64,000 bases of DNA. It comes from Streptomyces diastaticus subsp. diastaticus. Its GTDB lineage: Bacteria; Actinomycetota; Actinomycetes; Streptomycetales; Streptomycetaceae. The stretch spans positions 372,001 to 436,000 of the forward strand of contig NZ_BLLN01000005.1 in NCBI RefSeq assembly GCF_011170125.1. Direction: 5' to 3'. Below, in pieces: positions 7,843 to 32,510 of this stretch (position 1 is the stretch's first letter; each line of letters opens with the position of its first letter). Position numbers and translations under genes: made by a program. The notes below the pieces were generated by a model that saw only the letters and a program-made list of their open reading frames with translations, was not told the origin of the DNA and did not search any database.

Positions 7843-7956
7843 ATGTCCGCCCCCGCCGCCTCACCCCCGACCCCGTCCAACCTCAAGCGCATCGTCGGCG
7901 CGAGCCTGGTCGGGACCACCATCGAGTGGTACGACAACTCATCCGATCGGGTCTAG
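7843..7956 (+). pseudogene. MFS transporter of the metabolite:H+ symporter type, truncated after about 31 codons
   Basis: The frame reads MSAPAASPPTPSNLKRIVGA and then SLVGTTIEWYD, the hallmark entry into the first transmembrane helix of MHS-family (proline/betaine, shikimate-like) symporters. After WYD the expected FFLYG is replaced by NSSDRV and a stop at 7954. The upstream Shine-Dalgarno-like GGAAG and ATG are intact, so the break lies at about 7,934-7,937. The missing C-terminal 400 residues are nowhere in the window. Confidence 0.75.
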
Positions 7957-11742: not shown

Positions 11743-11961
11743 TCAGGTGCCTCAGCCAAGGGTACGAAGCGGGTCCGACAACCGGTCGCCGTTTCCCCGG
11801 CCGCCAAGGGGGCGCCTGCCGGGCTGGGCGGGCACACCCTGTCAGCAGGCCGGGGTCAGGGCTCGCTGCCGAGTGCGCGCAGCACCGGGGTTGGCAACCA
11901 TCGTGCTTCGGCTCACGACGACGGGCGGCCGCTGTGCCCTGGCCCGTCAGCCCGTCAGTAG
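11743..11961 (+). pseudogene. Possible 3' part of the ORF interrupted by the IS
   Basis: Directly after the right inverted repeat a frame stays open for 72 codons and ends with TAG at 11959-11961, overlapping the 3' end of tpg on the other strand. It is in register with the 5' part at 10050-10322 if one 3-bp target copy is removed. The composition (Gly/Ser/Arg) is weak evidence, and an open frame of this size in GC-rich DNA can arise by chance. Confidence 0.3.
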
Positions 11962-12509
11962 GAGACGTCGAAGTAGTCGATGTCGGTGAGGGCGACTTCG
12001 AGGCCTGTGGCGCGGCGTCCGCCGTCCTTGAAGTACACCTCCTGCAGTCCTTCGGCGACGATGTCACGCATCTGCTGGTCGGTAGCGCCCTGTTGCTGGG
12101 CGTCGAACAGGCGGCGGGCGTAGGCCGGCGGAAGGTGGACGGTCAGGCGGCGCATCCTGCCGTCGTCGGTGGTACCGACGGGCGCGGTGTAGCCGAACCG
12201 GGCCCGGGTCTCCACGGTGATGCCGGTGCTGGTGGCGGCCTGCTTGCGGCGGCGCCCTCGGACCTTCGGCTGCCAGCGGGCGCGTACGGCCGTCTCAATG
12301 CGGTCGGCGATGGGCTTGGGCGGGTGCTTGCGCTCGCCGGTGCGGTAGCGCTCCACCGACCGCCGACTGACACCAAGCTCCGCCGCGACGGCCTTGGTGG
12401 TCTTCAGCTGGCCAATCAGGAAGTTGATGCGGGCCTTGAGGCCCTTGGGGGGCTCACGGGTGAATGCTTCCTGGTCGGCCCGCTCGATAGCGTCCTCGAT
12501 CTCCCCCAC
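11955..12509 (-). CDS. tpg: Telomere terminal protein Tpg
   Basis: 184 residues, the standard Tpg length. Tpg is covalently bound to the 5' ends of linear Streptomyces replicons and primes end patching. Visible: the N-terminal EDAIERADQEAFTREPPKG, a helix-turn-helix (about 37-57: KAVAAELGVSRRSVERYRTG), the basic KVRGRRRKQAATSTGI and the well conserved C-terminal block REIVAEGLQEVYFKDGGRR-like sequence (here RDIVAEGLQEVYFKDGGRR) with TDIDYFDVSY at the end. GTG start with GGGAG 8 nt upstream. Only 3 bp separate it from the gene before it. Its usual partner tap is about 10 kb upstream on the same strand. Confidence 0.88.
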   Translation of the reverse strand: MGEIEDAIERADQEAFTREPPKGLKARINFLIGQLKTTKAVAAELGVSRRSVERYRTGERKHPPKPIADRIETAVRARWQPKVRGRRRKQAATSTGITVETRARFGYTAPVGTTDDGRMRRLTVHLPPAYARRLFDAQQQGATDQQMRDIVAEGLQEVYFKDGGRRATGLEVALTDIDYFDVSY

Positions 12510-12987: not shown

Positions 12988-13080
12988 CTACTCGCCTTCG
13001 TCGAAGACGGCGTCGTGTAGGTTCGCGCCGCCGCTGTCATTCCGGACCGCGGTGACCTGCTGCTTGTGCTGCTGTCTCAT
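12988..13080 (-). CDS. Possible 30-residue peptide upstream of the tpg operon
   Basis: ATG at 13080 opens a frame reading MRQQHKQQVTAVRNDSGG followed by an acidic tail and a stop at 12988. Weak Shine-Dalgarno GGGA 7 nt upstream. The sequence is not Arg/Pro-rich, unlike random frames here, but its size makes this a tentative call. Confidence 0.3.
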   Translation of the reverse strand: MRQQHKQQVTAVRNDSGGANLHDAVFDEGE

Positions 13081-13121
13081 TGAATGTCCCGCGGTTCCCG
13101 TCTCAGTACGGTGGCATTTCC

Positions 13122-13658
13122 TCATGCGGCATCGCCCTGCTGGTCCTCGCCGGGGTTCCAGGTCTGGTCGAACCAGGTGATGAAGTCCATCACGGTGCCG
13201 ACGCGGGCGATGCGCTCGTGGATGGCTCGCTGGTCGTGTCCGGGAAGGAAGTCGCCGCGTTCGATCGGTTTGTCGCAGCCGCAGTTGCACTTCCGGTTGT
13301 CCAGTGGGGACTTGAAGTAGGTGATGGGGTTCTGCTGAGCTCCGTTCGGCGCGGGTTTGCCGATGTAGTGGTCGTACACCGGATGCCCGGGGCTGAGGAT
13401 GCGTCCTTCGAAGGCCCGCCGGCCGTCGGGGGTGTCGACGACCCGGTCGATCTCCATGGCCTGCCTGATGATGACGTCTCCACTGACGACGGCGAACCGC
13501 TCTCGCTCGACACGTTCGCCGGGGATCGCCCAGGTTCCCCGGGCGATGTCATGGAGCTGCTGGTCGGAGAGCCCTTCGGTCCATCCGATCTGTGACCGCG
13601 CGAAGGCGTCCTTGCGCGGGTCGATCAGCCTGTGTCTGCCCAGCGTGATCTGGATCAA
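13122..13658 (-). CDS. Hypothetical protein with a Cys cluster
   Basis: 178 residues, TTG start backed by a near-perfect Shine-Dalgarno (AAGGAGG, 4 nt before). The C-terminal part has CNCGCDKPIERGDFLPGHDQ, a compact Cys/His group that could bind zinc, and then a helix RAIHERIARVG. The N-terminal 110 residues are a mixed alpha/beta region without known motifs. I do not know its function. Transcribed in the same direction as the tpg operon but separated from it by about 200 bp. Confidence 0.6.
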   Translation of the reverse strand: MIQITLGRHRLIDPRKDAFARSQIGWTEGLSDQQLHDIARGTWAIPGERVERERFAVVSGDVIIRQAMEIDRVVDTPDGRRAFEGRILSPGHPVYDHYIGKPAPNGAQQNPITYFKSPLDNRKCNCGCDKPIERGDFLPGHDQRAIHERIARVGTVMDFITWFDQTWNPGEDQQGDAA

Positions 13659-13868
13659 CGCACCTCCTTGAGACCATCTCTTAACGGAGTCGATGCGTCT
13701 AAGGTAGCGGAGATGCGCCAGACCATCAATCTTCCTTGAAACGGGGTCTCATGGCCTTGCGGCTGTCCGCGTCCGCAGCCAGCGGCCGAGACATAGAAAC
13801 GGCCCGCTTCCTGACGAGTTGACGGGATGCAGCCCCCAGGTGAGGATCACCCCGGAAAGGGGGCGGCA

Positions 13869-14393
13869 ATGGGGGAACTGCCCGGAGGATTCGGCCCCGG
13901 GGACCGGCGCGCTGCATACGTGCGTGCCCTGTACGGGGATCTACCGACCGCGTTCACGATCCGCTGCTCCGCACAGAACCAGGGCTGCGGACGGAGCCGG
14001 GGAGTCGCCCTGGCTCTACCCCCTGGCGCGGAACATGCGCTGGTACTGCTGCCCACCATGGCGGCGCAACTGCCGATCCTGATCGAGCGCAACTTCACCG
14101 GAGTGGTGACCGGACCGTTGTGCCCACGGAAAGGGCACAACGAGTTCAAGGACAAGGGCATCGCGCACGTAGCGCCCGGCGCGCCCAAGGCGAAGGAGAT
14201 CGCCGAGAAGTTCGAGTCTTCAGGCTCGACCCGGACCGTCATCGTGTGCGTGGACCTTGGAGCGCTGCGCCCCGGATTCGAGGAGTTTCACCGCACCGGC
14301 AAGCCGGGCATCGTATGGTGGTCGCCCGGAGAATCGGACACGCTGCTGAAACCCGAGTGGCAGCGCACCGCTATCCGCATCCAACCTGCATAA
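13869..14393 (+). CDS. Hypothetical soluble protein
   Basis: 174 residues. ATG at 13869 is chosen because GGAAAGGGGG lies just upstream; an in-frame ATG at 13827 has no such signal. It contains three Cys (RCSAQNQGCGRSRG and GPLCPRKGHN) and a C-terminal strand-rich part (TRTVIVCVDLGALRPGFEEF, GIVWWSPGES). No family recognised. It is followed 64 bp later by a small membrane protein gene on the same strand. Confidence 0.55.
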   Translation: MGELPGGFGPGDRRAAYVRALYGDLPTAFTIRCSAQNQGCGRSRGVALALPPGAEHALVLLPTMAAQLPILIERNFTGVVTGPLCPRKGHNEFKDKGIAHVAPGAPKAKEIAEKFESSGSTRTVIVCVDLGALRPGFEEFHRTGKPGIVWWSPGESDTLLKPEWQRTAIRIQPA

Positions 14394-14457
14394 GTCAGCC
14401 ACTGACGGTAGTCGGAAGTGCGGCCGTGGCACGCCGGAACCCTTGGAGGGTTTCGTC

Positions 14458-14679
14458 GTGCTGTTCAAGTACATGCTTGCGCTGGCTGGCTCGTTCCTGT
14501 TCTTCGTTGATCCTCTGCTGGCCTCCGGCATGATCCTGTTCTTCGCGCTCGCCATGCTCGCTCTCGTCGCTGCGGCGACGGCAGCGGCTCTGTGGTCCAA
14601 GCAGGCCCGCCGCCGTGAGGACGCCCGCCAGGTTCTCCTGATCCTGTGCGAGTTCTTCTTCGCCCCGAAGAAGAGGTAA
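14458..14679 (+). CDS. Small two-helix membrane protein
   Basis: 73 residues with two hydrophobic helices (about 5-20 and 27-48) and a basic cytoplasmic tail ending FAPKKR. The GTG at 14458 has GGAGG 8 nt upstream; a TTG 15 nt earlier would place the Shine-Dalgarno inside the gene. Function unknown. Confidence 0.5.
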   Translation: MLFKYMLALAGSFLFFVDPLLASGMILFFALAMLALVAAATAAALWSKQARRREDARQVLLILCEFFFAPKKR

Positions 14680-15053
14680 CCCCCGCACCGTCGAGAGGGC
14701 GAGGCTGACGGCGGAGGGGCTGCTGCGGCTCCCAGGTCGAGGCCGGTGCGGCACAGGCGCCCGGGGCAGGGGTCGTCACTCTCCCCGCCCGGGGCGCCTG
14801 GAGCGTACGGGCCCAGTCAGGGTCTGGGCAGCGGCAGGCCGGGCATCTGCGGGTGGCGCAGGTGCTGCCCGCCGTCGTACACGTGCAGCGTGAAGGACTC
14901 CGGGCCCGGGGCGCCAGCCGCGTCGCTCCCGGCTCAACACGCTGCTCGAGGCGGCCCGCCCGTACGAGACCGCCGCCGTCGATGAGGTACGCACGAGGGC
15001 GGAGGAAGTCGCCGCCCGCCCGACGGCGATCGCGGCCTGAGAGCATCGAGCGC
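14680..15053. other. Gap without a supportable gene
   Basis: About 370 bp. The short frames present lack Shine-Dalgarno sequences and coding-like composition. I see no repeat or RNA feature. Confidence 0.45.
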
Positions 15054-15335
15054 ATGGGCAAGCACCGCCGACCCGAACCAGCCGTCCCGCGCCGTGCCGC
15101 ACGTGAACGCCGACGACCCGCTCGCCGCGTACAACAAGCGACGCCGACCGCCGATGGACATCTACCGCCGTCACCGACCGATGCACGGCGGCGCAGCCAC
15201 CTCCGGCCCGACGAGCCACGGATCCTGGAGGAGTGGGACGACTTCACCTACCAGGTGGCCGGCACCGCACCAAACCTCGCCGAGGCCCAGAACTGGGTTG
15301 CGGAACTGGCGCTCGACGACGACCCCGCCGCGTGA
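15054..15335 (+). CDS. Small hypothetical protein
   Basis: 93 residues. The N-terminal half is basic (MGKHRRPEPAVPRRAARERR); the last 37 residues form a well-behaved acidic segment (ILEEWDDFTYQVAGTAPNLA and a helix ending DDDPAA). Only the C-terminal half looks clearly like protein, so the start is uncertain. Confidence 0.4.
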   Translation: MGKHRRPEPAVPRRAARERRRPARRVQQATPTADGHLPPSPTDARRRSHLRPDEPRILEEWDDFTYQVAGTAPNLAEAQNWVAELALDDDPAA

Positions 15336-15537
15336 GGGAGGGAACTGGCGATACGCGTAAAACCCGCCACTAGGTGACCCAGTGTGATGTATCAGTGCGC
15401 TGAGTTGAGTTCGCATACGCTCCGTGATCTTGAGCCGGGTCCTCTTGGGGGCCAACCGGAATACTCGGCCCCTCTGACGCCCCAGCCTTCTTGAGGATGC
15501 CCGCAGGTGCGGTTCGTGCACCACCCTGGAACGCAGC

Positions 15538-15572
15538 GGCGCCCGCCCCGAGGTCGGATCGGGACGGGCGCC
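15538..15572 (-). terminator. Hairpin terminator between convergent genes
   Basis: Arms 15538-15551 and 15559-15572 pair over 14 bp with one mismatch and a 7-nt loop. It lies 17 bp after the stop of the minus-strand gene at 15590. Confidence 0.65.
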
Positions 15573-15589
15573 GACATCGGTCGGGGCCG

Positions 15590-15925
15590 CTACTGGCCGC
15601 CGGTCGCGTTGAAGCGGGCTACCTCCTCCTCGTGCCGCTTCGCTGCCTCTGCGGACGCCGCCGCGAAGGTCTTGACGGCCGCCTGTACCGGGGTGGGGGT
15701 CTCGGGGTACGTCTCGTCGAGGTCCCGGATGCGCAGGGCGCGTACGTCGTCGGGCAGGTCGTCGAGACCGCGGAGTGCTTCGACCTCGGCGAGCTGGTAC
15801 GCGGCGGTCGCCTCGGGGCGGGATGTCGAGTGGTGGTTGAGGTAGATGCCCATCTCAAGGATGCGTCCGAGGGCACGCTTCGTGATCTGTTCTTCCTGCG
15901 CCTTGGTGTAGGTCGGCCACGACAC
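15590..15925 (-). CDS. Small helical protein of unknown function
   Basis: 111 residues, GTG start with AGGAGG 8 nt upstream. Mostly alpha-helical by composition, with a Glu/Lys/Ala-rich C-terminal helix (AAASAEAAKRHEEEVARF). No motif recognised. It is the first gene to the left of the tniQ end of the Tn7-like operon and may lie inside or outside that element. Confidence 0.6.
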   Translation of the reverse strand: MSWPTYTKAQEEQITKRALGRILEMGIYLNHHSTSRPEATAAYQLAEVEALRGLDDLPDDVRALRIRDLDETYPETPTPVQAAVKTFAAASAEAAKRHEEEVARFNATGGQ

Positions 15926-16068
15926 TTATGGGTCCTCCTGGGTGGTGAGTTGCCTTGATCGATTGTGTGCCCAACTGCAGGCCGCGTGGGAGCGTAGGCA
16001 GGATTTGGGCACGAGGTGAGGCGCGCGGCTGTCACGGGCCCCAGGGTGGTTGGAGGAGATACGGCAGG

Positions 16069-18378
16069 TCAGCCCTTCCGGGCGGGCCGTCGACCGGGAA
16101 GGTCGTGCTGCCGGCCCAGGTAGCTGATCATTCCGAGCGAGAAGCCGGTCTCCTCGGCGAGCTCGCGGCAGGTGCGTCCGGCGGCCCGTTCCTCGCGGAG
16201 CCAGTCGAGATCGATCTGGCGCCAGCGGGTCGCTTTGCCCTCGCGGGTCATGCCGTACTCGCGGACCAGGACCTTGATGGCGTCCTCGTTCACGCCGGCG
16301 CGCTTCGCGATCCACTTCAGCGGTCGGTATTCCTCGAGGTAGAGGCGGGCGAACGTGTCCTTGGGGAGCGCGGCGCGGGCCCGGCGGATGGTCGCTCCTC
16401 TCTCCCACATCGCGGATCTTCTGGGGGGTGCCGGCTGCTCCTGCAGGACGAAGCGGACCGCGTCATGGCTCACCCCCAGGCGGCGGGCCGCTCCAGCTGT
16501 CGTCAGGGATCCGTCCCGGATGAGGCGATGCAGGAGGCCCAGGTCGATGTCCCCGAGGTCGCACCCGGGCAGGTCGAGACCGTCGATGATGTCCGTCGGC
16601 GGCTGCCAGGTGAGAGGCTCGTCGTGGATGCCCTGCCGGGCGAGGAACTCGCGTGCGTGCTCTTCGAGTTGGCTCACCAGCCCGGGGGTGAGATCCGTTT
16701 CGAAGGTCCGCAGCATGGTCCGCAACTCCGGGGTGGCGGGCGCGTAGGCGGCCGGGGCGACGGTGGCCGGGAGGCCGCTGATCCGCTCGAACAGCAGCGC
16801 CCGGGCAAATAGGTGCCGCCGCACGCCGCCGGCGTCGAATTCGATGTCCCGGCAGAGCTGTGTCCAGGTGTCCAGAGGAAGCAGATCGCGGTAGTCGACC
16901 GCGCGGCGGCGGTCGTAGTCGATCGGTGACCCCTCCTGGTCGAGGTAGTCCGCCAGCGCGTACAGGCCGAGGCTGATCGCCGTGAAGTGTCCCCGCTTCG
17001 TGAGCCGTTGCGCCATGTGGGGACCGAGCCTGTCCTCCGCCGGGGACCGGAGAATCCGGGTCGCTGTAGTGAAATCCCCTCTCGCGCCGCCGACGAGCAG
17101 GAGGTAGCACGACAGGGCCAGACGGATGGTGCGCGACAGAGACCCGCTCACAGGGCTCAGCCGCGCGGACCACGTCGGCCAGAGCTGCGTCGGGATCCAG
17201 CGGGCCCGCTGAGCGGTCCGGGGGGCCGCCGCAGAGACAGGCCTGCGAGGCAGCCGGTCCGCGGTGCGGTACCGCAGCTGGTCGCTGTGTTTGAGGCGGG
17301 GGGCCAGCGTCGCGAGGTGGATCGCGTCGAAGACCTCGCTGGTGTGGTTCCACCGGTGTGCGACCTTGAGGGGCATGGTGCCGTCGGCGTCGCTGATCAG
17401 GTGGCGAAGGGCGTCTCCAGCCACATGGGCGTTGTCGTGCCCGAGGATGTGCAGGGCCGCGCTGACCGCGAGGGCGGCGGTCGCGGCCCGCCGTGGGGCC
17501 AGACGGCCCGGCAGGGTCTCCTCGGCGGGGTCGAAGGCACGCACCGCTTCGGGCTCGGGATGCTGATGCGCTGACAGGATCTCGGGCGGGACAAAGTCCA
17601 CCAGGCGCTCAGGGACGCGGCGAAGGAGGATGCAGGCCAGGGCCCGAAGGTCACCGAACAGCGCAAGACTGGACTGGGGCTCATCCTGGTAGACGCCGAA
17701 GTCGGCCTGCCCCATGGAGATCGCGTTCTCGATGAGTCTCTGGGCCGCGATCACCGGCCCCTGCCTGGTGAGCTCGATGGCGTCGGCCTCCTCGAGCGGC
17801 TGACCGCAACGTACGGCCCGCGAGGAGTCGTCCTTGGCCGGGCTGTGGCACTGCCCCGGAACAAGCGGGTGCCGTGTGGTCGTGGGGAAGTGCCGTGGCG
17901 TACGGCTGCAGCGCGGGCAGGCGTCGACCAGCAGCAGACGGTGATCCAGGCAAGCGAAGGACCAGCCGAGTCTCCATGTCAGCAGCCATCTGCCGCCGTT
18001 CTCGGCCAGGCAGGCCGGGCAGTAGCGGGACCCGCGGGCCCGTCCCCAGACATGCCGCGCTGCGACCCGACGCCGCTGGGGGGCGATCACGTGGACCCGC
18101 TGGTCGTAGCGGGCCAGGGTCATCGCGTGCATCTGCGCCGGGGGCACGCCGGCCGACCATGCGGCCCTCGCCGCCTGGTCCTCATCAAGGAGCGTGACGA
18201 GGTGCCCCAGGATGCCCGAGCTCACCGGCCTGGACGGGCTGCGCGGCAGCAGGCCCATGGCGGAGAGAACGTCGCCGGTGTTGGTGCCCAGCCGGTGGGC
18301 GATCGCCTCCCACCAGGAGTCGAGTGCCTCGCCTGGGTGGGGGGCGAGACGGATCGGCAGGGTCCGCGCGTGCGTCAC
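16069..18378 (-). CDS. tniQ: TniQ/TnsD-type transposition target-selection protein
   Basis: 769 residues, GTG start overlapping the tnsC stop by 4 bp. The N-terminal TniQ domain contains the zinc-binding pattern: Cys120, Cys123 (SRYCPACLAENGG), Cys143/His146 (FACLDHRLLL) and Cys154/Cys157 (ACPRC). The C-terminal third has at least three helix-turn-helix units (AARRLGVSHDAVRFVL, IAKRAGVNEDAIKVLV, ELAEETGFSLGMISYL), as expected for a TnsD that reads a specific attachment site. The length is well above the short TniQ of CRISPR-associated transposons, and no cas genes are present, so DNA-sequence targeting is the likely mode. Confidence 0.85.
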   Translation of the reverse strand: MTHARTLPIRLAPHPGEALDSWWEAIAHRLGTNTGDVLSAMGLLPRSPSRPVSSGILGHLVTLLDEDQAARAAWSAGVPPAQMHAMTLARYDQRVHVIAPQRRRVAARHVWGRARGSRYCPACLAENGGRWLLTWRLGWSFACLDHRLLLVDACPRCSRTPRHFPTTTRHPLVPGQCHSPAKDDSSRAVRCGQPLEEADAIELTRQGPVIAAQRLIENAISMGQADFGVYQDEPQSSLALFGDLRALACILLRRVPERLVDFVPPEILSAHQHPEPEAVRAFDPAEETLPGRLAPRRAATAALAVSAALHILGHDNAHVAGDALRHLISDADGTMPLKVAHRWNHTSEVFDAIHLATLAPRLKHSDQLRYRTADRLPRRPVSAAAPRTAQRARWIPTQLWPTWSARLSPVSGSLSRTIRLALSCYLLLVGGARGDFTTATRILRSPAEDRLGPHMAQRLTKRGHFTAISLGLYALADYLDQEGSPIDYDRRRAVDYRDLLPLDTWTQLCRDIEFDAGGVRRHLFARALLFERISGLPATVAPAAYAPATPELRTMLRTFETDLTPGLVSQLEEHAREFLARQGIHDEPLTWQPPTDIIDGLDLPGCDLGDIDLGLLHRLIRDGSLTTAGAARRLGVSHDAVRFVLQEQPAPPRRSAMWERGATIRRARAALPKDTFARLYLEEYRPLKWIAKRAGVNEDAIKVLVREYGMTREGKATRWRQIDLDWLREERAAGRTCRELAEETGFSLGMISYLGRQHDLPGRRPARKG

Positions 18379-19502
18379 CGGCGAACCACCTGACGGGACC
18401 GGCGGGAGCGCTGGCCCTTCAGGAGATTGCGTACGTCGTCCTGGGCCAGGTGGGCCGCCTGGTCGATCTTGACGCGGCTGAGCAGTTCCTCATCGAGACG
18501 CTCGGCGCCGGTGCGCGCGGCTCGCTGGCAGCCGCGGTTGATGAGGGTCATCAGCGACCCGATGTGGCCGCTGGAGCGGATGAAGAGGTAGTCGAACAGG
18601 TCGTCGGCGAGCATTCCCCGGTACTTCTCCCTGAGCACCAGGCGCTTCTCCAGGGCCAGCAGCAGCTGCCGCCACTCGGCGCGGCCCTGATCACTCTTGA
18701 GCTCGAAGGACCGCATGTCCAGGCGGGTCGTGCGCCGGCCCGTCTGGGCCAGGACCGCGTTGTCGTAGGTCTCGCCCTCGGAGAACAGGCCACGCGCGGC
18801 CAGGCCGACGCCGACGAACAGCAAGGTGACCGGGAACTCGTTCGCGATGTACTTGAAGTGGTTGCTCACCTCGACACCGCCGGTCGCCCTCCATCGGAGG
18901 AAGTGCAGATCGTCGACGATCAAGAGCTTCACATCACACGAGAGCACACAGTCCAGAGCGCGCTGGGCGAACTCGGCCGTGGTGCCGGTGACGCGTCCGG
19001 GGTGGCCGAAGAACTCCAGCATCGCCCGGTTGAAGTCCTTCATCCCGGTGTTGCCGGTCAGGCCTACCCGGCAGACGGGGAGCCGTTCGTGCCCGCCGTC
19101 CGTGAACGCGCCGCCCTCGGCGATCTCCCGGCGGTGGAAGTCCCGGGCGAAGGCCAGCACGGCAGTGGTCTTGCCCAGCCCGGGAAAGGCGTCCACCGCG
19201 ACGGCGCCCTTGGCCTTGTCGCCGTCCTGCTGGTTGCTGTCGACGATGTCCCACAAGTCCTCGTGCACCTCGGCCAGCTGCGGGGTGCGCAACGGGCCGA
19301 GGTTCGCGTGCCACACTCGCCGGGCCCGGTCGTACTCGGCCCGCGCCCGCTCATTCAACGCCACATACGCACTGCGCGGCAGCAGTTCGGGCTGGACACG
19401 CGGCGCCGCGTCCGCGAACGCCGCCCAGCCCTCCTTGCGGGACAGGGTCAGCGCGTCCAGGCGGTGGACGTCTCCCGGCGTCCAGGTGTTCTCGCTGTTC
19501 AC
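18375..19502 (-). CDS. tnsC: TnsC/TniB-type AAA+ transposition regulator
   Basis: 375 residues, GTG start. Walker A at about 105-113 (FPGLGKTT), Walker B at 193-198 (LLIVDD) followed by the LHFLR typical of TniB/TnsC, and a C-terminal helical lid with SSGHIGSLMTLINRGC. This ATPase forms the filament that links the target selector to the transposase. It overlaps tnsB upstream and tniQ downstream by 4 bp each. Confidence 0.9.
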   Translation of the reverse strand: MNSENTWTPGDVHRLDALTLSRKEGWAAFADAAPRVQPELLPRSAYVALNERARAEYDRARRVWHANLGPLRTPQLAEVHEDLWDIVDSNQQDGDKAKGAVAVDAFPGLGKTTAVLAFARDFHRREIAEGGAFTDGGHERLPVCRVGLTGNTGMKDFNRAMLEFFGHPGRVTGTTAEFAQRALDCVLSCDVKLLIVDDLHFLRWRATGGVEVSNHFKYIANEFPVTLLFVGVGLAARGLFSEGETYDNAVLAQTGRRTTRLDMRSFELKSDQGRAEWRQLLLALEKRLVLREKYRGMLADDLFDYLFIRSSGHIGSLMTLINRGCQRAARTGAERLDEELLSRVKIDQAAHLAQDDVRNLLKGQRSRRSRQVVRR

Positions 19503-21616
19503 GCGTCCTCCAGGGCGTCGGTGTAGAAGTCGCTGTCGTCTTCCAGCTCCACCAGCTCGGCATCATCAGCCACGTCGTCGTCGCCCGCCTCGGCCGCGAG
19601 CTGCGGACCAGCCGCGTCCGGCAGGTCCATCAGGCGCCGCACGCTCGGCAGCGTGGCGACGCTCTCCTCGGGCTCGGGCAGGTCCAGGGCCGCCTGTTCC
19701 CGGGCGAGCCGCAGCGCCATCCGGCGCTCGACCAGCGTGGTGCCCAGGCCGAGGTTCCACCGCTCGAACAGGTCCCGGACCGCGGCCTTATCGTCCGGGA
19801 ACCGGTCCCGGGCCGCGGCCAGACGGCGGGCGTACTGAAGTGCCTCCTCGCTCACCGGCATGTCCCGCCCCGGCGCGTGCTCCCAGGCCAGCGCGTGCCA
19901 CCGGCGGCTCGCGGGATCGCGGAAGTAGACCGCGTTGATGTCGTCCGGGTTCACCGCGATCGGCCACTTGCCGTCCCGCTCATCGCTGAGCAGCCCGCGG
20001 TAGGGGTCCAGGGCGGCGCCGTTGTAGCGGCGCGCGTCCAGGTCGATGCCGTAGTGCTGGATCTTGCGGCGTTCCACCCGCAGGAACTCGAACGCCAGGT
20101 CCGGATCGCGCGGCACCTCGATGTAGCCGGCCCGGTGCAGGCCGTGCTCGAACATCGCCGCCGGCGACATCCGCAGCCCCGGAACGCCCGGATCGACCAG
20201 ACTGGTGTGTGGCCTCACGTGATACACGCAGGCCACCCACTCGCGGATGATCGCCTCAAGTTCGTGGAGGAAGAAGAACGCCTCCCCCTCGGACCTCTCT
20301 CCCCTCGAGTGCAGATCGGGCCCCTTGTAACCGGGCAGGCCCTGCAGCAGGTCCTCGCGTAGGGTCAGAAAAAATCTCTCCAGCGGGCCCTTGTCCCGGC
20401 CCGTCCGGAGCCTTGCTGGCTGCACCGATATCCCCAACCGGCGACAGACGCTGGTCAGATGCTCCGAGACGAACACCTTGCCGTGGTCGACCAGCACCGT
20501 CTCCGGCACCAGCGCCGGTGACGCCGCCGAGCGCATCGGCCCTTCCAGCGCCGTGGCGTCGATCAGGACCGACCTCGGGATGCCGTGCTCGGGCCAGAGG
20601 GCGTGCGCCGGCCAGTCCGCTCCCGCGGGCCGGGGCCTGAACGCCTGGTAGAGGGCGTCGCTGGCGTCCACCGCTTTCGTCGACACCGGGGTGATCCTGA
20701 TTCCGCAGATGCAGCGGGTGTACCAGTCCATCGCGACCGTGAGCTCCGCCTGCAGCCACTGCAGCGTGACCGGGTCCAGGGCGAACACGTCCAGACGGTT
20801 GGTGTCCATCAGCAGGTACTCGCCCGGCCGGGTCGGCCGCAGCTTCCCGTAGACCCCGCCGGGCCGGGCGGCAATGTCCCGGTTCCGCTTCGTACTCAGC
20901 CGGAACGTCGGATGCCGCCGCTCAAGGCCCTCCAGCAGGCGGTAGGCAGTCGCCCGGCTGGGCAGGTCCTCCTCCTCGAACCCCCTGGCCAGCAGCCGGG
21001 CACGGGTCCGCTCAATGACCATCTTGCGCGACGGCTTGGACTGGCCCGTGTGCTCGACCATCACCTCCAGTGCCGCCTCCGACCACACCTCCGCGTTCCG
21101 GTGCCCGGACCGCGGACCGCTGCGAGCCGGCACCAGTCCCGCCTCACCGTCCCGGCGAAACGCCGACACCCACCGCGCGACCGTGCGCGCGGCCACCTCG
21201 AGCTCGGCCGCCTTCGCCGCGTACCGGCTCTCCATCGGCTCAACCGGCGCGTAGTCGGCGCGGGGCTCCCCCGCGGCCGCCAACTCCTCGCTGCCGCTGC
21301 GGAACCCGGTGAGCACCTCCCGCACGTGCGCGGCCCTCTCCAGCACGCGCTCGCGCTCCGCGGTATCCAGCTGGTCCAGCACCACCGCGGCCACGTCCTG
21401 CGGGTCGTCGGAGGCCGGTCCGGGCCCGTCCGGGATGACGCGGGCGCGGTCCGAGAGCAGCAGTTCCTTGACGGCCAGCCGCAGCAGCCGTCCCCGCCCG
21501 TCCTTGAGGACCACCCCGCCGCCGGCCTGCGTGCTGGCGAGCTCCACCACCTCGACGACCTCGCCGTCGTAGGAGAAGCGGGTCCCCACTCCCACGCGCA
21601 CCGCGGCCCAGTTCAC
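19499..21616 (-). CDS. tnsB: TnsB/TniA-type DDE transposase
   Basis: 705 residues, GTG start overlapping the tnsA stop (GTGA). An N-terminal helix-turn-helix region (EVAARTVARWVSAFRRDGEA) precedes an rve integrase core with catalytic Asp271 (LLMDTNRLDVF), Asp377 (VLVDHGKVF) and Glu413 (DKGPLERFF), 35 residues apart as in this superfamily. A Mu-type C-terminal domain follows, ending in an acidic tail likely to contact TnsC. It performs 3' end cutting and strand transfer. All catalytic residues are present, so the enzyme looks functional. Confidence 0.92.
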   Translation of the reverse strand: MNWAAVRVGVGTRFSYDGEVVEVVELASTQAGGGVVLKDGRGRLLRLAVKELLLSDRARVIPDGPGPASDDPQDVAAVVLDQLDTAERERVLERAAHVREVLTGFRSGSEELAAAGEPRADYAPVEPMESRYAAKAAELEVAARTVARWVSAFRRDGEAGLVPARSGPRSGHRNAEVWSEAALEVMVEHTGQSKPSRKMVIERTRARLLARGFEEEDLPSRATAYRLLEGLERRHPTFRLSTKRNRDIAARPGGVYGKLRPTRPGEYLLMDTNRLDVFALDPVTLQWLQAELTVAMDWYTRCICGIRITPVSTKAVDASDALYQAFRPRPAGADWPAHALWPEHGIPRSVLIDATALEGPMRSAASPALVPETVLVDHGKVFVSEHLTSVCRRLGISVQPARLRTGRDKGPLERFFLTLREDLLQGLPGYKGPDLHSRGERSEGEAFFFLHELEAIIREWVACVYHVRPHTSLVDPGVPGLRMSPAAMFEHGLHRAGYIEVPRDPDLAFEFLRVERRKIQHYGIDLDARRYNGAALDPYRGLLSDERDGKWPIAVNPDDINAVYFRDPASRRWHALAWEHAPGRDMPVSEEALQYARRLAAARDRFPDDKAAVRDLFERWNLGLGTTLVERRMALRLAREQAALDLPEPEESVATLPSVRRLMDLPDAAGPQLAAEAGDDDVADDAELVELEDDSDFYTDALEDA

Positions 21617-22404
21617 GACGCGCTCCTGAGCACGCTGCGGGCACTGAGCGGAACGCTCAGGTCGGTCAGCCACTGCTGTTTCCACAGCAGATGCAACACC
21701 GCGGCGCGTACCAGCGGCGCCGGACGGCCCGGCAGGCAGGCGAACGCCTCCCCCAGCGTCTCCCCGTCCACCACCCGGTCGCGTACGTCGTCGAGGATCG
21801 CCGGGTCGAAGAGCCAATCCGGACGATCCGGCGGTGGCTCCTCGTCCACCGCCTCGTCGCCTTCCTCCTCGAGCAGGTCCGGCTCGAACAGCCAGTCGCG
21901 GCGGTAGCCCGCGAGGAAGCGGACGTTGGCCAGCTCGGCGTCCGGCGGCTCGCTCCACACCTCGTAGCACCAGCCGCGGGCCTCGACCGCCTCACGAGTC
22001 CAGGAGAAGGTGAACGCGTGCTCCGGCCGGGCCACCCAGTGCCGCGGCTTGACGTCCACTACCAGCGGGCCCGCCGTGGTGGCCATCAGGTAGTCCGGGA
22101 TGTGCCGGCGCAGCGCACCGTCCACCTCGGCCCGCAGCAAGAAGGGCTGGGCCACGATCCCGGTCACGCCCCGGTCGAAGTCGGCGTAGAGCAGCCGTGC
22201 CAGCTCCAGCCGCGACTCGTAGATCACGTGATCCGACTGCGTACTTGACCAGTACGAACCCGAGTAGTGCTTCTGCCCCATGTACCAACGGAACGTCCGC
22301 CACGGCTCGGCCGCGTAAAGCATCTCAAGCGGCACCGACTCCCAGGCGAGGTCCTCGCGCACCTCGTCCTCGGCAAGCCGGACACACACCTCTACATCCA
22401 CCAT
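21613..22404 (-). CDS. tnsA: TnsA-type endonuclease
   Basis: 263 residues. PD-(D/E)XK fold with Glu63 (YESRLELARLL), Asp104 (HIPDYLMAT) and Asp117-x-Lys119 (VVDVKPRHW), the exact TnsA arrangement. TnsA cuts the 5' strands of the transposon ends so that transposition is cut-and-paste rather than replicative. The ATG at 22404 is preceded by GGGGGCGG and lies 7 bp from the long inverted repeat. It is the first gene of the four-gene operon. Confidence 0.88.
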   Translation of the reverse strand: MVDVEVCVRLAEDEVREDLAWESVPLEMLYAAEPWRTFRWYMGQKHYSGSYWSSTQSDHVIYESRLELARLLYADFDRGVTGIVAQPFLLRAEVDGALRRHIPDYLMATTAGPLVVDVKPRHWVARPEHAFTFSWTREAVEARGWCYEVWSEPPDAELANVRFLAGYRRDWLFEPDLLEEEGDEAVDEEPPPDRPDWLFDPAILDDVRDRVVDGETLGEAFACLPGRPAPLVRAAVLHLLWKQQWLTDLSVPLSARSVLRSAS

Positions 22405-22410
22405 CCGCCC

Positions 22411-22462
22411 CCAGTGCCCGTGTAACTGACCTTGATCCGCAGGACAGTTACACGGGCACTGG
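22411..22462. repeat. Perfect 18-bp inverted repeat upstream of tnsA
   Basis: Arms 22411-22428 and 22445-22462 (CCAGTGCCCGTGTAACTG and its reverse complement) are separated by 16 bp. Its position directly outside tnsA suggests a pair of TnsB binding sites at the transposon end, or an operator for autoregulation of the tns operon. Confidence 0.7.
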
Positions 22463-22523
22463 AGTACGAACGGCCACACGCGCCTTCGATCACTCGAAAG
22501 GGTGATCATTCCAAGCCAGGGAT

Positions 22524-22589
22524 CTCAGAACCGCGTCATAATTGCTACTCAAAGGTCATCGCTCGCGAGAACATGACGCGGATTCTGAG
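22524..22589 (-). terminator. Imperfect inverted repeat just after the tap stop
   Basis: Arms 22524-22539 (CTCAGAACCGCGTCAT) and 22573-22589 match over 16 bp with one extra base, around a 33-nt spacer. It begins 4 bp downstream of the tap stop codon, so a terminator is the simplest reading; the long loop makes a protein-binding site or transposon-end repeat possible. Confidence 0.45.
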
Positions 22590-22592
22590 TAC

Positions 22593-24680
22593 CTACACGT
22601 CGCCGCCCTTGATGTGCCGGGCGGGGTTGAGGCCCTGCTCCATCAGGTCGACCGCCCACAACATCGACTGGACACCCTCAAGCTTCGCCAGGCCCGGTGT
22701 GGGCCCGAGGCGGAAGCCGCCGGGCTGCGGCTTGCCGGAGGCCGCGTACGGGAGGAAGGCGAGCGGGCTGTCGCCGGGGCTCGGGTAGACGACGCAGTCG
22801 GACAGCACGGCGAGCGGGAACAACCCGGTCATCTTCGCCATATTGGTGAGCTTGCGGTGCATGTTGACCCGGGCCTTGGAGATGACGGCGGCGCGGATGT
22901 CGGGGCGCCAGGTCGGGCGTTCCAGGGCCGGCCATCGGTCCCCGTCCTTGTAGTTCTTGCCCTGCGGGCGCTCGCGGAGCTTGCCGACGCCGCCCTTGAC
23001 CGTGGCCTTGATGGCCGCGAGGACGGCGGCCAGGGCCGGGTCGGTCTGCTTGTACCGCTCCATCGCCGCGAGGAACTCCGTGTCGGTGAGGTCCTTGGTG
23101 ACGCCGAGGTCGGCGAGTGTGTCGACGTACGCATTCTTGAGCCGGTCGTGCCACGGGTCGAGGTACGCGCCGGTCTCGCGGCGCAGGTACGCCTCGATCG
23201 GCGCCACGTTGTAGCCGAGCTCCTGGGCGTAGGCGACGGTGTGCGTCTGGTACCAGGCCGGGCCGGTCGGCCGGGTGCCGTCGGGCGTGAACGGGCTGGG
23301 CAGGCGCGGGTCCAGCTCCACGTGGGAGAGGTCGACCAGCCAGGAGCCGGGGATCTTCGGGTTGAACTTCGGGCCGACGAAGTGGTCCGGGGCGGACAGG
23401 CCGACGACCAGCCGGGCTGCGGCCGCGAGGAACGCGGTGTTCAGGTCAAGGCCGACCGCGTACGGCAGCGTGCACTCCTCGTCGGTGAGCAGGTTCACCG
23501 GCCGCACCCACTGGTAGGCCTCTTCGTTGAGGAAGCCGCCCTTCCAGCCGGAGTTCACGACGACGGGGTGCTCCGGAGTGGCCTCCGGCGGCGCCGGGTT
23601 CATCGGCTCCGTTCCCAGCGAGCCGGGGTTGTGGCCGCTGACCCAGTTCCCGGTCGCTTCCTCCCGCACAGCGCGCGTGGGCGGGCGCAGCGCCGTCATC
23701 AGCTCCAGCCCGGAGACAGCCGTGGAGCCGCGCGGGGTGATGACCCGCTGGGCGTAGACGCCGAGGACGCGTGCGATGTCGGCCGGCTCCATGTCCGCGA
23801 CGCCGGGCCAGGAACGGGCGTCGAGGGCGTCCCAGGACAGGATCGCCAGTTGCACGCACTGGCGCTCACGCCCCTGGGCCTTGCGGTAGATCCGCGCCCA
23901 CGGCCCGAAACCGCGCTGCGTGAGCTGCCACTTCGCCTTCGCGACTTGCTTGACGACCGGGTGGTCCGCCGGCAGGCGCAGGGAGCGGCGCTGCTCGTGA
24001 CCCTCCAGGCGCTCCGGCAGTCCGAGCTTCACGGCGGCTGCGGCGGTCAGAACGACCAGCGGGTCGGAATCCTTGCCGTACCGGTTGAGCTTCGGTGCAC
24101 CGAGCCCGGACTCCTTGAGCGTCCACTCCACCAGCTCCGGGATCGTGGTGGCCGGGCAGTCGAGCACGATGCCGCCCGTGCCGTACGCGCAGCCGTCACC
24201 GTCCAGCACGGCGAGCGGGCCGTGCGGGAAGCGCGGGTCGACGGGGGGCTTCGTGGCCTTCTGCGACGCCGGACGCCGCGACGTCGCCGGGCCCGCGGAA
24301 CGCTCCGGGGCGGCGGGAGCCTCCACCACTGCGGACGTCTCGGGCGCGGCCGGGCCGGTGAACGTCTGCGGAACCGGCTCGGGCTGGGCTGCGGGCGCCG
24401 GGGCGGGCGCGGCGGCGGAAGCTGCGTGGGCTGGATACTTCGCCGCCCAGCCGTTCAGCAGCCGCTGGTACGCCTCCAGGCGTGGCGACTTCGGCTCAGA
24501 GCGCCCGTTTTCGTAGTTCTTCACCGTCTGCGTTGACGTCTTCAGCGCGACCGCGAGACGGGCCTGGGTGATGCCGGCGGCTTCCCGCAGCCGGGCACGC
24601 TCCGCCGGGGGCGGGAGCTGCGGCTCCTCCTCCAGCAACGCGTCGACCGACGCGAACAGCTCTTCCTCGGTAGTTGCCAT
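22593..24680 (-). CDS. tap: Telomere-associated protein Tap
   Basis: 695 residues, near the roughly 740 of known Tap. Tap binds the 3' single-stranded telomere overhang and recruits Tpg. Visible: an N-terminal helix-turn-helix (about 27-60: REAAGITQARLAVALKTSTQ, then TVKNYENGR), a Pro/Ala linker (about 85-140), and the large conserved C-terminal region with FGPWARIYRK, LPYAVGLDLNTAFLAAA, GGVGKLRERPQG and LSDCVVYPSPGDSPLAFLPY near the end. No strong Shine-Dalgarno. Normally tpg follows immediately; here the Tn7-like operon begins instead. Confidence 0.85.
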   Translation of the reverse strand: MATTEEELFASVDALLEEEPQLPPPAERARLREAAGITQARLAVALKTSTQTVKNYENGRSEPKSPRLEAYQRLLNGWAAKYPAHAASAAAPAPAPAAQPEPVPQTFTGPAAPETSAVVEAPAAPERSAGPATSRRPASQKATKPPVDPRFPHGPLAVLDGDGCAYGTGGIVLDCPATTIPELVEWTLKESGLGAPKLNRYGKDSDPLVVLTAAAAVKLGLPERLEGHEQRRSLRLPADHPVVKQVAKAKWQLTQRGFGPWARIYRKAQGRERQCVQLAILSWDALDARSWPGVADMEPADIARVLGVYAQRVITPRGSTAVSGLELMTALRPPTRAVREEATGNWVSGHNPGSLGTEPMNPAPPEATPEHPVVVNSGWKGGFLNEEAYQWVRPVNLLTDEECTLPYAVGLDLNTAFLAAAARLVVGLSAPDHFVGPKFNPKIPGSWLVDLSHVELDPRLPSPFTPDGTRPTGPAWYQTHTVAYAQELGYNVAPIEAYLRRETGAYLDPWHDRLKNAYVDTLADLGVTKDLTDTEFLAAMERYKQTDPALAAVLAAIKATVKGGVGKLRERPQGKNYKDGDRWPALERPTWRPDIRAAVISKARVNMHRKLTNMAKMTGLFPLAVLSDCVVYPSPGDSPLAFLPYAASGKPQPGGFRLGPTPGLAKLEGVQSMLWAVDLMEQGLNPARHIKGGDV

Positions 24681-29644: not shown

Positions 29645-29672
29645 AGCCCGCCGTGGCTTTCAGCGGCGGGCT
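29645..29672. terminator. Hairpin between convergent ATPase and helicase genes
   Basis: AGCCCGCCG (29645-29653) and CGGCGGGCT (29664-29672) form a perfect 9-bp stem with a 10-nt loop. It overlaps the stop codon of the helicase gene and can serve both strands. Confidence 0.6.
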
Positions 29673-32050
29673 CCCTCGTGCAGGTGCCGGCGCAGCTGTG
29701 CGCGCAGCTGCGCCAAAGGGGCGCTCGCGCCGAGCCTCCGCAGGAAGTCGGCGGCTTCCCAGGTGATCAGGCCCCCCTGGCGGGAGAGGTACAGGCCGAC
29801 CTGGTCGATACCGAACTCGTCGTCGTAGTCCAGCAGGAGGTATCCGGCGAGCTGGTAGATCTCCTCGCGGCCCAGGCGGCGGGGGTCCTTGGTGGCTTTG
29901 CAGTCCAGCAGCAGGCCGCCGAGGATGTAGTCGGCGTCGGCACCGCCGATGTCACCACTGCCCGCGAAGACCGGACCACACACGCGGGCCCGTTGCGGTA
30001 GAGCCCGGAAGGCGGCGAACGGTCCCTCGGCGAGCCGCATCTGCTGGTCGATGTCGGTCACGACGTACTCGGGGACCGCCGCGGTGAGGTCGTCCAGGGT
30101 CGTGGCGGGGGTGGCAGAGCTGAGCATGCTGAAGCGGCGGATCTCACCGGTGCGGGCGATGTCCTCGAAGAAGCCGGCCACGAAGCACAGCCGGATGAGC
30201 GCGTTCTCTTCCAGGCTGCCGGGGTCGGCGAGGTAGGCATCGACGGTGACCAGCAGCTCCCTGCCCGCCGCGTGCAGGGCCTTGCGGGCCCCACGCGCCG
30301 GTGCGCCGCGCAGCGGTCCGGTCTCGTCAAGGAACATGACGCCGGCGACAACGGCCAGTCCGAGCCGCCCACCGAGGCTGAGACGGAGGCGGTAGTCGAC
30401 GGCGTGCCCGAGGGCCGACCCGTTCGGGTACTGCACGTCAATCGGCTGCACCGGGTGAGGGAGGCCGGCGATACGCGCCTGGTAGTCGCCCACCAGGTTC
30501 TGGCTATTCGGGAGGTGTGCGGCCATGAACTGCGAGATCGGTGAGGAGTCGTACTTCAGCTGCCCAGTCAAGGACAGCTCGATCATGGGCCGCCCGGCCA
30601 CCGTGCCGTCCCGGCCGGCGTCGGCCATGGTCTTTTCGTACTCGTCGATCCAGGCGATGCCCTCGGTGTCCAGCAGATGGCGGGCACGGGTGACCGCGAC
30701 GTAGATCAGGCGGGCCTCGCTCGCATTCAGCGCGCGCTGCAGGCCCAGGTCGTCCACCGACGGGGCCATGAAGCCCTTGCCGATGCGTACCGACGGCCAC
30801 TCCCGTCCCTTGGCCTTGTGCGCGGTGGAGACGGTGACTTGCGCCTTCTCCACCGGAGAGAGGCGGTCCACCGCGGCGATGATCTGGTCAGGGCCGTAGG
30901 TGTCGACCAGTTGCACGATCGCTTTGAGATCCTGGCCGGCCTTGTCCTGGTCGGCGTACTCCTGCACCTCGCCCCAGGAGGAGAACAAGAACAGCTCCGG
31001 GTGGCTGGTGCGCTGCCCGGCCTTGAGCTCGATCGCGGCCTTGGCGATGCGCTGCAGCGCGCTGCCCCCGCCGGTCAGCGCCACCGGGACGCCGAGCTCC
31101 AGGTAGGACAGGACCTCGCTCATCGCGTCCACGTTGCCCCGGCACAGCACCGCCTCGGGCTGGGCCACCTCGCCGACGCGGGAGCCGGGGCCGTGGCCGG
31201 TCAGCTGCATCTCCGACTCGGCGTGCCCCAGCCACCGGTTGGCCACCTCGGCGATGGCCGGGCCGAAGCGGAAGGACTGGGTCAGGCGCAGTTGCTCGGC
31301 CGGGAAGCCGGTCATCACATCGCGCGCGTTGCGCCAGCCGTAGATCTGCTGGGCCGGGTCCCCGACACACACCCGCTGTGCGTCCTGGGCGAGGAAGACC
31401 TCCTCCAGGACAGGGTTGGTGTCCTGGGCCTCGTCCAGCAGGACGAAATCCGCCCCGAGCTGCGGGGAGGTCATCGCCCACAGCTTCATGTAGTGGTCGT
31501 GCTCGAACCGCAGCCGGCCCGCGGGCGAGCAGATGTCCTCCCACGCACGATGCGCGTAGGGCAGCAGAGTGCGGGCGAGATAGTCCTGGCCAAGGCCGTC
31601 GAGGCCGTTGACCGGCTCCATGTGGCGGGCCATGACCTGCCGGTCGGTGGTGTAGCAGAACTTGCGGACCATGCCCATCACCAGACGCGCGGCGTGAGTG
31701 ACCTTGATCCGGGGGGAGCCCACGTCAAGGTCGCGGGTGATGCCGAGCAGGCGGGCGGTGTGCTTGGCGGGGATCCTCGCCGAGGCGTCCAGACGCTCAC
31801 GGTAGTGGTGGCCGACAGCACGGAAGGCCAGGGAGTGCGCGGTACGGCACTCCACGTTCGGCCCGAAGCGTGCGCGGGCGTCATCGGCGATCGCCCGGTT
31901 GAACGCCACGTACAGCCCGCGTCTGCGGGTCGCGGCGCCCATCAGGATGAGTGTCGAGGTCTTGCCGGTTCCCGCTCCGGCGACCAGGGCCAGGTCCCGG
32001 CCGGAAGCGAACACCTCACGGGCAGCCTGCTGCTCCTTCGTCGGCTCCAT
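29660..32050 (-). CDS. UvrD/Rep-type helicase fused to a C-terminal PD-(D/E)XK nuclease
   Basis: 796 residues. Superfamily 1 helicase motifs in order: I VAGAGTGKTSTL, II LLDEAQDTNPV, III GDPAQQIYGWR, IV region LTQSFRFGPAIA, V VSTAHKAKGREW, VI YVAVTRARHLL. From about residue 640 a second domain ends in a Cas4/RecB-like nuclease signature: ADYILGGLLLDCKAT, then EEIYQLAGYLLLDY (D-x-K and QxxxY). It thus combines DNA unwinding and cutting in one chain. ATG at 32050 is chosen with AGAGGAA 10 nt upstream; the frame is open further. It is convergent with the zinc-hook ATPase. Confidence 0.82.
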   Translation of the reverse strand: MEPTKEQQAAREVFASGRDLALVAGAGTGKTSTLILMGAATRRRGLYVAFNRAIADDARARFGPNVECRTAHSLAFRAVGHHYRERLDASARIPAKHTARLLGITRDLDVGSPRIKVTHAARLVMGMVRKFCYTTDRQVMARHMEPVNGLDGLGQDYLARTLLPYAHRAWEDICSPAGRLRFEHDHYMKLWAMTSPQLGADFVLLDEAQDTNPVLEEVFLAQDAQRVCVGDPAQQIYGWRNARDVMTGFPAEQLRLTQSFRFGPAIAEVANRWLGHAESEMQLTGHGPGSRVGEVAQPEAVLCRGNVDAMSEVLSYLELGVPVALTGGGSALQRIAKAAIELKAGQRTSHPELFLFSSWGEVQEYADQDKAGQDLKAIVQLVDTYGPDQIIAAVDRLSPVEKAQVTVSTAHKAKGREWPSVRIGKGFMAPSVDDLGLQRALNASEARLIYVAVTRARHLLDTEGIAWIDEYEKTMADAGRDGTVAGRPMIELSLTGQLKYDSSPISQFMAAHLPNSQNLVGDYQARIAGLPHPVQPIDVQYPNGSALGHAVDYRLRLSLGGRLGLAVVAGVMFLDETGPLRGAPARGARKALHAAGRELLVTVDAYLADPGSLEENALIRLCFVAGFFEDIARTGEIRRFSMLSSATPATTLDDLTAAVPEYVVTDIDQQMRLAEGPFAAFRALPQRARVCGPVFAGSGDIGGADADYILGGLLLDCKATKDPRRLGREEIYQLAGYLLLDYDDEFGIDQVGLYLSRQGGLITWEAADFLRRLGASAPLAQLRAQLRRHLHEGARR

Positions 32051-32510
32051 GGCCAAGGGGTTCCTCTCTGGGAAGCGCGGCTTCATATACCGCAACCCCA
32101 GAGGCTGAAGCAGCCGATGACCAACCGTCAATACAGTCATACGTTCGGTAGCCAGTTCCAGCCGAACCTGGGCGGGCCTGCAACGCGGCACCGAGAGCCT
32201 GTGTGCTGCCGGTTTCCCCCTCCCCCGCCCCTCGGCGATCCACCCCGTCGACGCAATCAGGCCAACGAACTTCCTTGATTTCGAGAGGAGTTGTCGGTCC
32301 TGGTTTCTATGCTGCCGCAGGTTGGGGAACCGGTCGGCACCGCGCTGGTGCCCGGCCGCGTGACCAGATGGGAGGTGCGGGATGCCGACGTGTACCCGCC
32401 GGGCCAAGTCGACCCGGCGCTTATGCCGCCGCGAGGCCCCCGAGTGGCCCCGCTACGACGATCTTCCCAGGGGTACCAACGGAACTCGCTGGTCAGGGGC
32501 TGTCGGGTGC
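32051..32510. other. Gap upstream of the helicase and after the PPTase
   Basis: About 460 bp holding the promoter side of the helicase gene and the 3' end of the PPTase transcript. No gene, RNA or repeat is apparent. It is a candidate border between the accessory island and the biosynthetic cluster. Confidence 0.4.

Follow-up and report, generated by a model that had tools for sequence, protein, structure and literature searches.

Gene content of a Tn7-like locus in Streptomyces diastaticus

The window analysed here, a 64,000-nt stretch of the genome of Streptomyces diastaticus subsp. diastaticus (7.08 Mb in 9 contigs; contig C5, NZ_BLLN01000005.1, positions 372001-436000), contains a tnsA-tnsB-tnsC-tniQ operon located between tap and the terminal protein gene tpg (Table 1). 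All 4 genes are on the minus strand and have intact catalytic residues. They belong to what is, very probably, a complete Tn7-like transposon, for which the 3' end of tap serves as the attachment site and TniQ as a TnsD-like selector reading the 3' coding region of tap. A preliminary description, made from the sequence alone, had reported a complete gene set with intact active sites at 15967-22462. Family matches and conserved residues bear out the set, and the interval covers the operon but not the element as a whole.

TnsA is recognized by an existing NCBIfam actinobacterial model, NF033179 (TnsA_like_Actin; 238.4 bits, cut-off 110), and hence the operon type itself is not new. Its residues E63, D104, D117 and K119 (numbered from 22404) are kept in 83, 83, 81 and 79 of 83 aligned homologues, respectively; a search against PDB returned no sequence match. 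TnsB matches the TnsB of a V-K CRISPR-associated transposon (E 6.6e-21), and its DDE triad, D275/D381/E417 counted from 21628, is invariant (10/10) and corresponds to the residues previously numbered D271/D377/E413 from another start. TnsC matches the Pfam families AAA_22 and TniB, as well as TnsC of Vibrio cholerae Tn6677 (E 3.7e-8). TniQ matches PF06527 (72.3 bits), with 8 Cys/His residues invariant in 30/30 sequences, and displays a fold match to TnsD and TniQ. Its predicted model contains 3 tandem helical units resembling helix-turn-helix (HTH) domains (approximately residues 613-647, 673-707 and 724-757), and the C-terminal block 701-750 is type-specific, with 91% identity within types and 33% between them.

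Ends, target-site duplication and empty sites

Comparison of the region with plasmids by megablast revealed a sharp break at window position 22597/22598, which falls within the final codons of tap. Among the matches listed, those covering only tap start at or within a few bases of this point and 2 covering only tns genes end there. Comparison of 5 elements defined conserved TGTAGGT termini at 22597 (right) and 13016 (left), with CGTCG immediately outside each. The insertion point lies 23 bp upstream of the end of the tap reading frame, and the element separates tap from tpg. In 3 plasmids with empty sites (L100-L102), tpg starts 3-4 bp after tap, and in a fourth (L103), a small gene lies between the two. 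When the window flanks are joined with a single copy of the duplication, they form an unbroken 850-bp alignment, at 88% identity, to L103, a linear Streptomyces plasmid. Thus, the exact ends, 5-bp duplication and empty site that the preliminary description had proposed to seek in related genomes were all found, the empty site on tap-tpg plasmids.

Ten distinct elements, including that of the window, were recovered: 6 with both ends, 2 with the tap side only and 2 with the tpg side only. TGT/ACA ends and a matching 5-bp duplication are present in 6/6 elements having both ends, with identical flanks identified by motif searches in the window, L018 (NZ_CP108083), L020 (NZ_CP109405), L021 (NZ_CP134606), L024 and G019; the last is a 19.2-kb element on an 8.23-Mb contig, approximately 145 kb from the contig end. 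L019 and L022 (S. pacificus record) have a right end only, in each case within tap, and L023 and L025 have a left end only, in each case with tpg next to it. G359, which has the same right end as L022, was not counted as an independent case. For the NZ_CP108735 element, no left end was detected within plasmid positions 1-74,833. A motif search based on the right end and tolerating as many as 5 mismatches did not retrieve the left end, because the two ends share only their first 7 bases.

An operon that is degenerate or immobile, and retained in the tap-tpg telomere module to serve telomere maintenance, would likewise account for the position of the genes, given that the intact members of the clade adjoin tap or tpg. 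However, plasmid records with near matches to the window tap number 141 versus 5 with the right end, empty sites exist, the 6 two-ended elements carry 4 different duplications, cargo varies and the catalytic residues are kept, which makes an immobile operon extremely improbable. The association with tap or tpg, raised earlier as a possible argument against transposition if invariable and without empty sites, holds for intact elements because tap is the target, but empty sites are found.

Putative TnsB-binding sites were examined at the ends, excluding L086 (different ends) and L067 (identical to L066). In a pooled test of 34 ends that ignores the relatedness of the elements, the mean inner-site score was 5.8 versus 2.8 ± 0.6 for 60 shuffles, and the best inner TnsB-like site of the right ends starts at position 27 in 13/17 cases. 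A self-repeat test applied to single ends was significant in only 1/36, so that a clear signal came from the pooled test alone. The right end of the window additionally carries an inverted copy of its CTCAGAA..CCGCGTCAT block approximately 59-74 bp inward. The repeats resembling TnsB sites anticipated in the preliminary description are seen at the right end but not clearly at the left.

Position of the insertion within tap

In 7/8 right ends, the TGTAG of the element immediately supplies a TAG codon terminating tap. In the window, the last 7 residues of Tap, AVFDEGE, are thereby replaced by a single V, and hence Tap function is probably spared by the insertion. The distance from the conserved GTGGG around a Trp codon to the insertion is 63 bp in 6 right ends, 62 bp in L021 and 61 bp in L024, so that the spacing is fixed at 61-63 bp in 8/8 right ends within tap. 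The other 7 Tap proteins are 85, 57 (over 56 residues only), 50, 51, 56, 60 (residues 437-692 only) and 86% identical to that of the window. Constant spacing despite such divergence is as expected of a selector bound to conserved coding DNA. The right ends lie at a constant point in tap, in line with the fixed attachment site predicted from the length and HTH units of TniQ, and the suspected target on linear replicons appears to be tap.

Table 1. Coordinates and assignment of features at the tap-tpg locus of the window
Feature	Position	Strand	Description
tpg	11955..12509	-	terminal protein; NF047541, 300.7 bits
Native final 23 bp of tap	12988..13010	-	stranded beyond the element
CGTCG target-site duplication, left copy	13011..13015		
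Whole transposon	13016..22597	-	9,582 bp; left end 13016, right end (tnsA side) 22597; based on TGTAGGT end motifs, CGTCG duplication, empty site
Left end	13016..13130	+	conserved blocks across 7 aligned left ends
g178	13122..13658	-	178 aa, beside left end; protein of the tap clade, predicted EVE/PUA-like base-reader fold and CxCxC motif
Cargo open reading frame (ORF)	13827..14393	+	188 aa; no match in Pfam, NCBIfam, PHROGs or PADLOC
Cargo ORF	15590..15925	-	111 aa; also in NZ_CP108083 element, 97% over 109 aa
tniQ	16069..18378	-	TnsD-like, 769 aa
tnsC	18375..19502	-	AAA+ regulator
tnsB	19499..21628	-	DDE transposase; ORF open to 21970, conserved part from 21628
tnsA	21613..22404	-	PD-(D/E)xK endonuclease, NF033179; ORF to 22509, probable start 22404
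Hairpin	22411..22462		near-perfect, 22-nt arms; before tnsA, found in relatives too
Right end	22522..22597	-	terminal site at positions 7-25; TnsB-site-like repeat from position 27
tap	22593..24680	-	NF047542, 1123.6 bits; now ends at TAG inside the right end of the transposon
CGTCG target-site duplication, right copy	22598..22602		

Tandem remnants, cargo and neighbouring genes

On NZ_CP108736 (approximately 109-121 kb), remnants of the element are arranged in series: a left end is followed by a right end after 6 bp and elsewhere after 5 bp, and the region retains 2 g178 copies, 1 near-whole tnsA and fragments of tnsA and tniQ. Repeated insertion into one site, each new copy next to those already present, would be expected to leave spacers of 5 bp. 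Such stacking may explain why, in L018 and L022, part of the cargo, which varies between elements, separates the right end from tnsA. Near the left end of the G019 element (contig C1, 20149-20517, joined reverse stretch), the C-terminus of TniQ is present a second time (residues 648-768, 74%), likely as a relic of the same process. The hairpin preceding tnsA is perhaps an operator or attenuator.

The claim that CRISPR genes are lacking held up, with no CRISPR-like repeat array within the element and no cas match among the ORFs scanned, only approximately 3 kb of the element being free of tns genes. Further out, a gene cut off after approximately 32 codons (7843-7938), presumably encoding a major facilitator superfamily (MFS) transporter, marks the edge of the lower-GC region holding tpg and the transposon. 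The possibility that this gene bounds a larger integrated replicon was rejected: the stretches examined did not contain its partner, the only similar gene start being at approximately 452 kb of contig C5. Near tap, the window also encodes a UvrD-like helicase of 915 aa (29660-32407), the C-terminal stretch of which weakly matches a DRT-associated PD-DExK model.

Related elements and a dnaB-associated group

Scanning of 1 genome per species for TnsB yielded at least 78 loci; among the 78 listed, 4 are tap-type, 3 have no detectable tnsA and 71 are others. The target could be scored in the 36 of these 71 non-tap loci in which a long ORF ends at the right end; the remaining 35 include loci at contig edges. 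In 32 of the 36 scored loci listed, this ORF is dnaB, the gene for the replicative helicase, and the right end follows its stop codon at a distance of 5-13 bp. All 32 dnaB ORFs align to one reference through its C-terminus, and the 6 that were scanned all match TIGR00665 (DnaB) above the cut-off. The 4 scored exceptions include L049, after a trehalase-like frame, and L029, after an OmpA-like frame, the others being L068 and L073. An element on a Mycolicibacterium alvei plasmid (L108) also follows an annotated dnaB, so that the dnaB-site group comprises 32 loci within L026-L097 plus L108. The 3' side of dnaB may itself constitute a previously unreported attachment site.

The dnaB-site relatives, from Streptomyces, Mycolicibacterium, Tsukamurella and others, share with the tap-type elements the same operon, ends that mostly read TGTAGGxTC... 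and TnsB proteins 54-68% identical. By contrast, they insert past the dnaB stop codon, their TniQ proteins are only 32-42% identical (23 non-tap rows aligned) and g178 was not found in them. A TnsB phylogeny, as suggested at the outset, was built from 84 rows; it groups the 9 tap-type rows as a single clade (support 100), and the dnaB and other sites are scattered over the remainder. TnsA relatives occur in 213/392 genomes of the same genus, but tap-type TnsA (88-100% identity) in only 3/392, including the window, the next best being 73% identical. The genome of the window may hold another Tn7-like locus on contig C3 (2058846-2063272), where 3 TniQ-type matches and a distantly related TnsA (36%) are present.

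Target selection and relationship to known systems

Tn7 has the gene order tnsA-B-C-D, TGT ends and a 5-bp target duplication, and inserts with the tnsA end towards its target gene, keeping a constant spacing to a conserved 3' coding block; the element described here resembles Tn7 (TnsABC+TnsD, attTn7 at glmS) in gene order, TGT ends, duplication, orientation and fixed distance. It differs in that the target is tap rather than glmS, the insertion lies before the end of the reading frame and not downstream of the stop codon, the TniQ C-terminus consists of tandem HTH-like units, and no tnsE was noticed, although no search aimed at tnsE was made. By analogy, TniQ would bind the region of tap encoding PGxxKxxGxxxxxW through its C-terminal HTH units and load TnsC, whereupon TnsA and TnsB would excise the element and insert it, with its tnsA end facing tap, approximately 63 bp past the conserved block at the Trp codon. 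Since tap-tpg occurs on both linear chromosomes and linear plasmids, one selector could provide both a chromosomal home and a vehicle.

Target choice could instead be set by g178, or by a TniQ-g178 pair, and not by TniQ alone. The g178 gene is found beside the left end in 8/8 tap-type elements having that end (window, 6 others and G019) and in 0/74 non-tap loci listed, a count that is soft because many of the 74 stop short of the left end; furthermore, its predicted fold is a base-flipping reader domain. Searches of Pfam, NCBIfam and PADLOC gave no match for the protein, whose only hits were a weak one to a PHROG of unassigned function and, in a profile search of PDB, one at chance level. However, TniQ is long, with 3 HTH-like units as in TnsD; in Tn7, the single protein TnsD suffices for target selection, and relatives of g178 occur in other genera in sequences not tied to tns genes. 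We therefore regard a role of g178 in target choice as unlikely.

Another explanation is that the locus represents a telomeric transposon, in which a telomere reportedly replaces one transposon end, with tap and tpg as cargo. Tns proteins on linear replicons are common to both, the element adjoins telomere genes, and such a class has been published for linear bacterial genomes (Hsieh et al. 2025, as cited in PMC12669027). Yet both ends of the element are internal and flanked by a 5-bp duplication, neither tap nor tpg is part of it, and TniQ is present, whereas the I-E5 form associated with telomeric transposons is described in PMC12669027 as lacking TniQ-TnsD. On NZ_CP108735, a tap-type element at 54-61 kb coexists with a TnsABC set approximately 5-9 kb from the plasmid end, beside helicase genes; in this terminal set (0.7-9 kb), TniQ is neither annotated nor detected, and TnsB shares only 32% identity with that of the window. 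The set fits the telomeric class as described in citing text and is probably a telomeric transposon, so that the two are distinct kinds. The telomeric explanation for the window element is thus very improbable. CRISPR-associated transposons differ from it as well, as it has no repeat array and no Cascade or Cas12k match among the ORFs scanned.

We thus return to a transposon with a tap attachment site. On sequence evidence, it has 2 ends and a 5-bp duplication, occupies a fixed position in tap in a fixed orientation, is matched by empty sites, retains intact core genes and belongs to a single clade, and tap appears to be a dedicated landing site on linear chromosomes and plasmids. Several observations weigh against this interpretation. 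The 2 elements with right ends only and the 2 with left ends only are incomplete in the DNA examined, only 10/34 ends singly pass the inner-site test, and at the left end the terminal site is not clearly repeated. In L019, only a remnant of tap is present (57% identity over 56 residues), and L024, in which tap is matched over only part of its length (residues 437-692), has a right end giving Tap no immediate stop. On NZ_CP108736, 2 degenerate right ends adjoin the left end of a further copy and not tap, with no tap found in the 35 kb examined, and therefore count against a strictly tap-only location. TniQ blocks 51-100 (75% within versus 29% between types) and 251-300 (79% versus 26%) differ between types as much as block 701-750. 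Finally, we infer the contact of TniQ with tap by analogy, and transposition, DNA binding and Tap function are likewise read from sequence.

The statement that Tn7-like systems are best known from proteobacteria and cyanobacteria is outdated. A clade dominated by Actinobacteria, described without experimental characterisation, was published by Benler et al. 2021 (PMC8649781), and hence an actinomycete host is not itself new. That clade shares with the present element the host phylum and TnsA family NF033179; the main text of PMC8649781 does not contain dnaB, Streptomyces or telomer-, whereas the tap-type elements are resolved here with exact ends. The main text of Faure et al. 2023 contains neither 'dnaB' nor 'actino'. 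Our literature search, whose coverage stopped short of most subscription journals and of Hsieh et al. 2025, found no report of a tap or dnaB attachment site, and there is a real chance that the tap site has already been noted elsewhere.

Implications

Tentatively, and with a probability that we place below even, a Tn7-like lineage may have abandoned a dnaB-type site and become specialised for linear replicons through recognition of tap, so that one protein-guided pathway would provide both a safe home (the chromosome) and a transfer route (linear plasmids), jobs that Tn7 splits between TnsD and TnsE, with the EVE-like protein specific to the clade checking DNA modification of the target or the element. 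The direction of this switch is only inferred, because the TnsB tree is a quick, midpoint-rooted one with flagged long branches. The tap-type system could become a site-specific insertion tool for the linear plasmids and chromosomes of Streptomyces, and the tap-reading selector and the related dnaB-site group form a natural pair for learning how TniQ reads DNA. The Tn7 family appears to gain an attachment site with exact ends and spacing, one that ties it to the genes keeping linear bacterial DNA linear.

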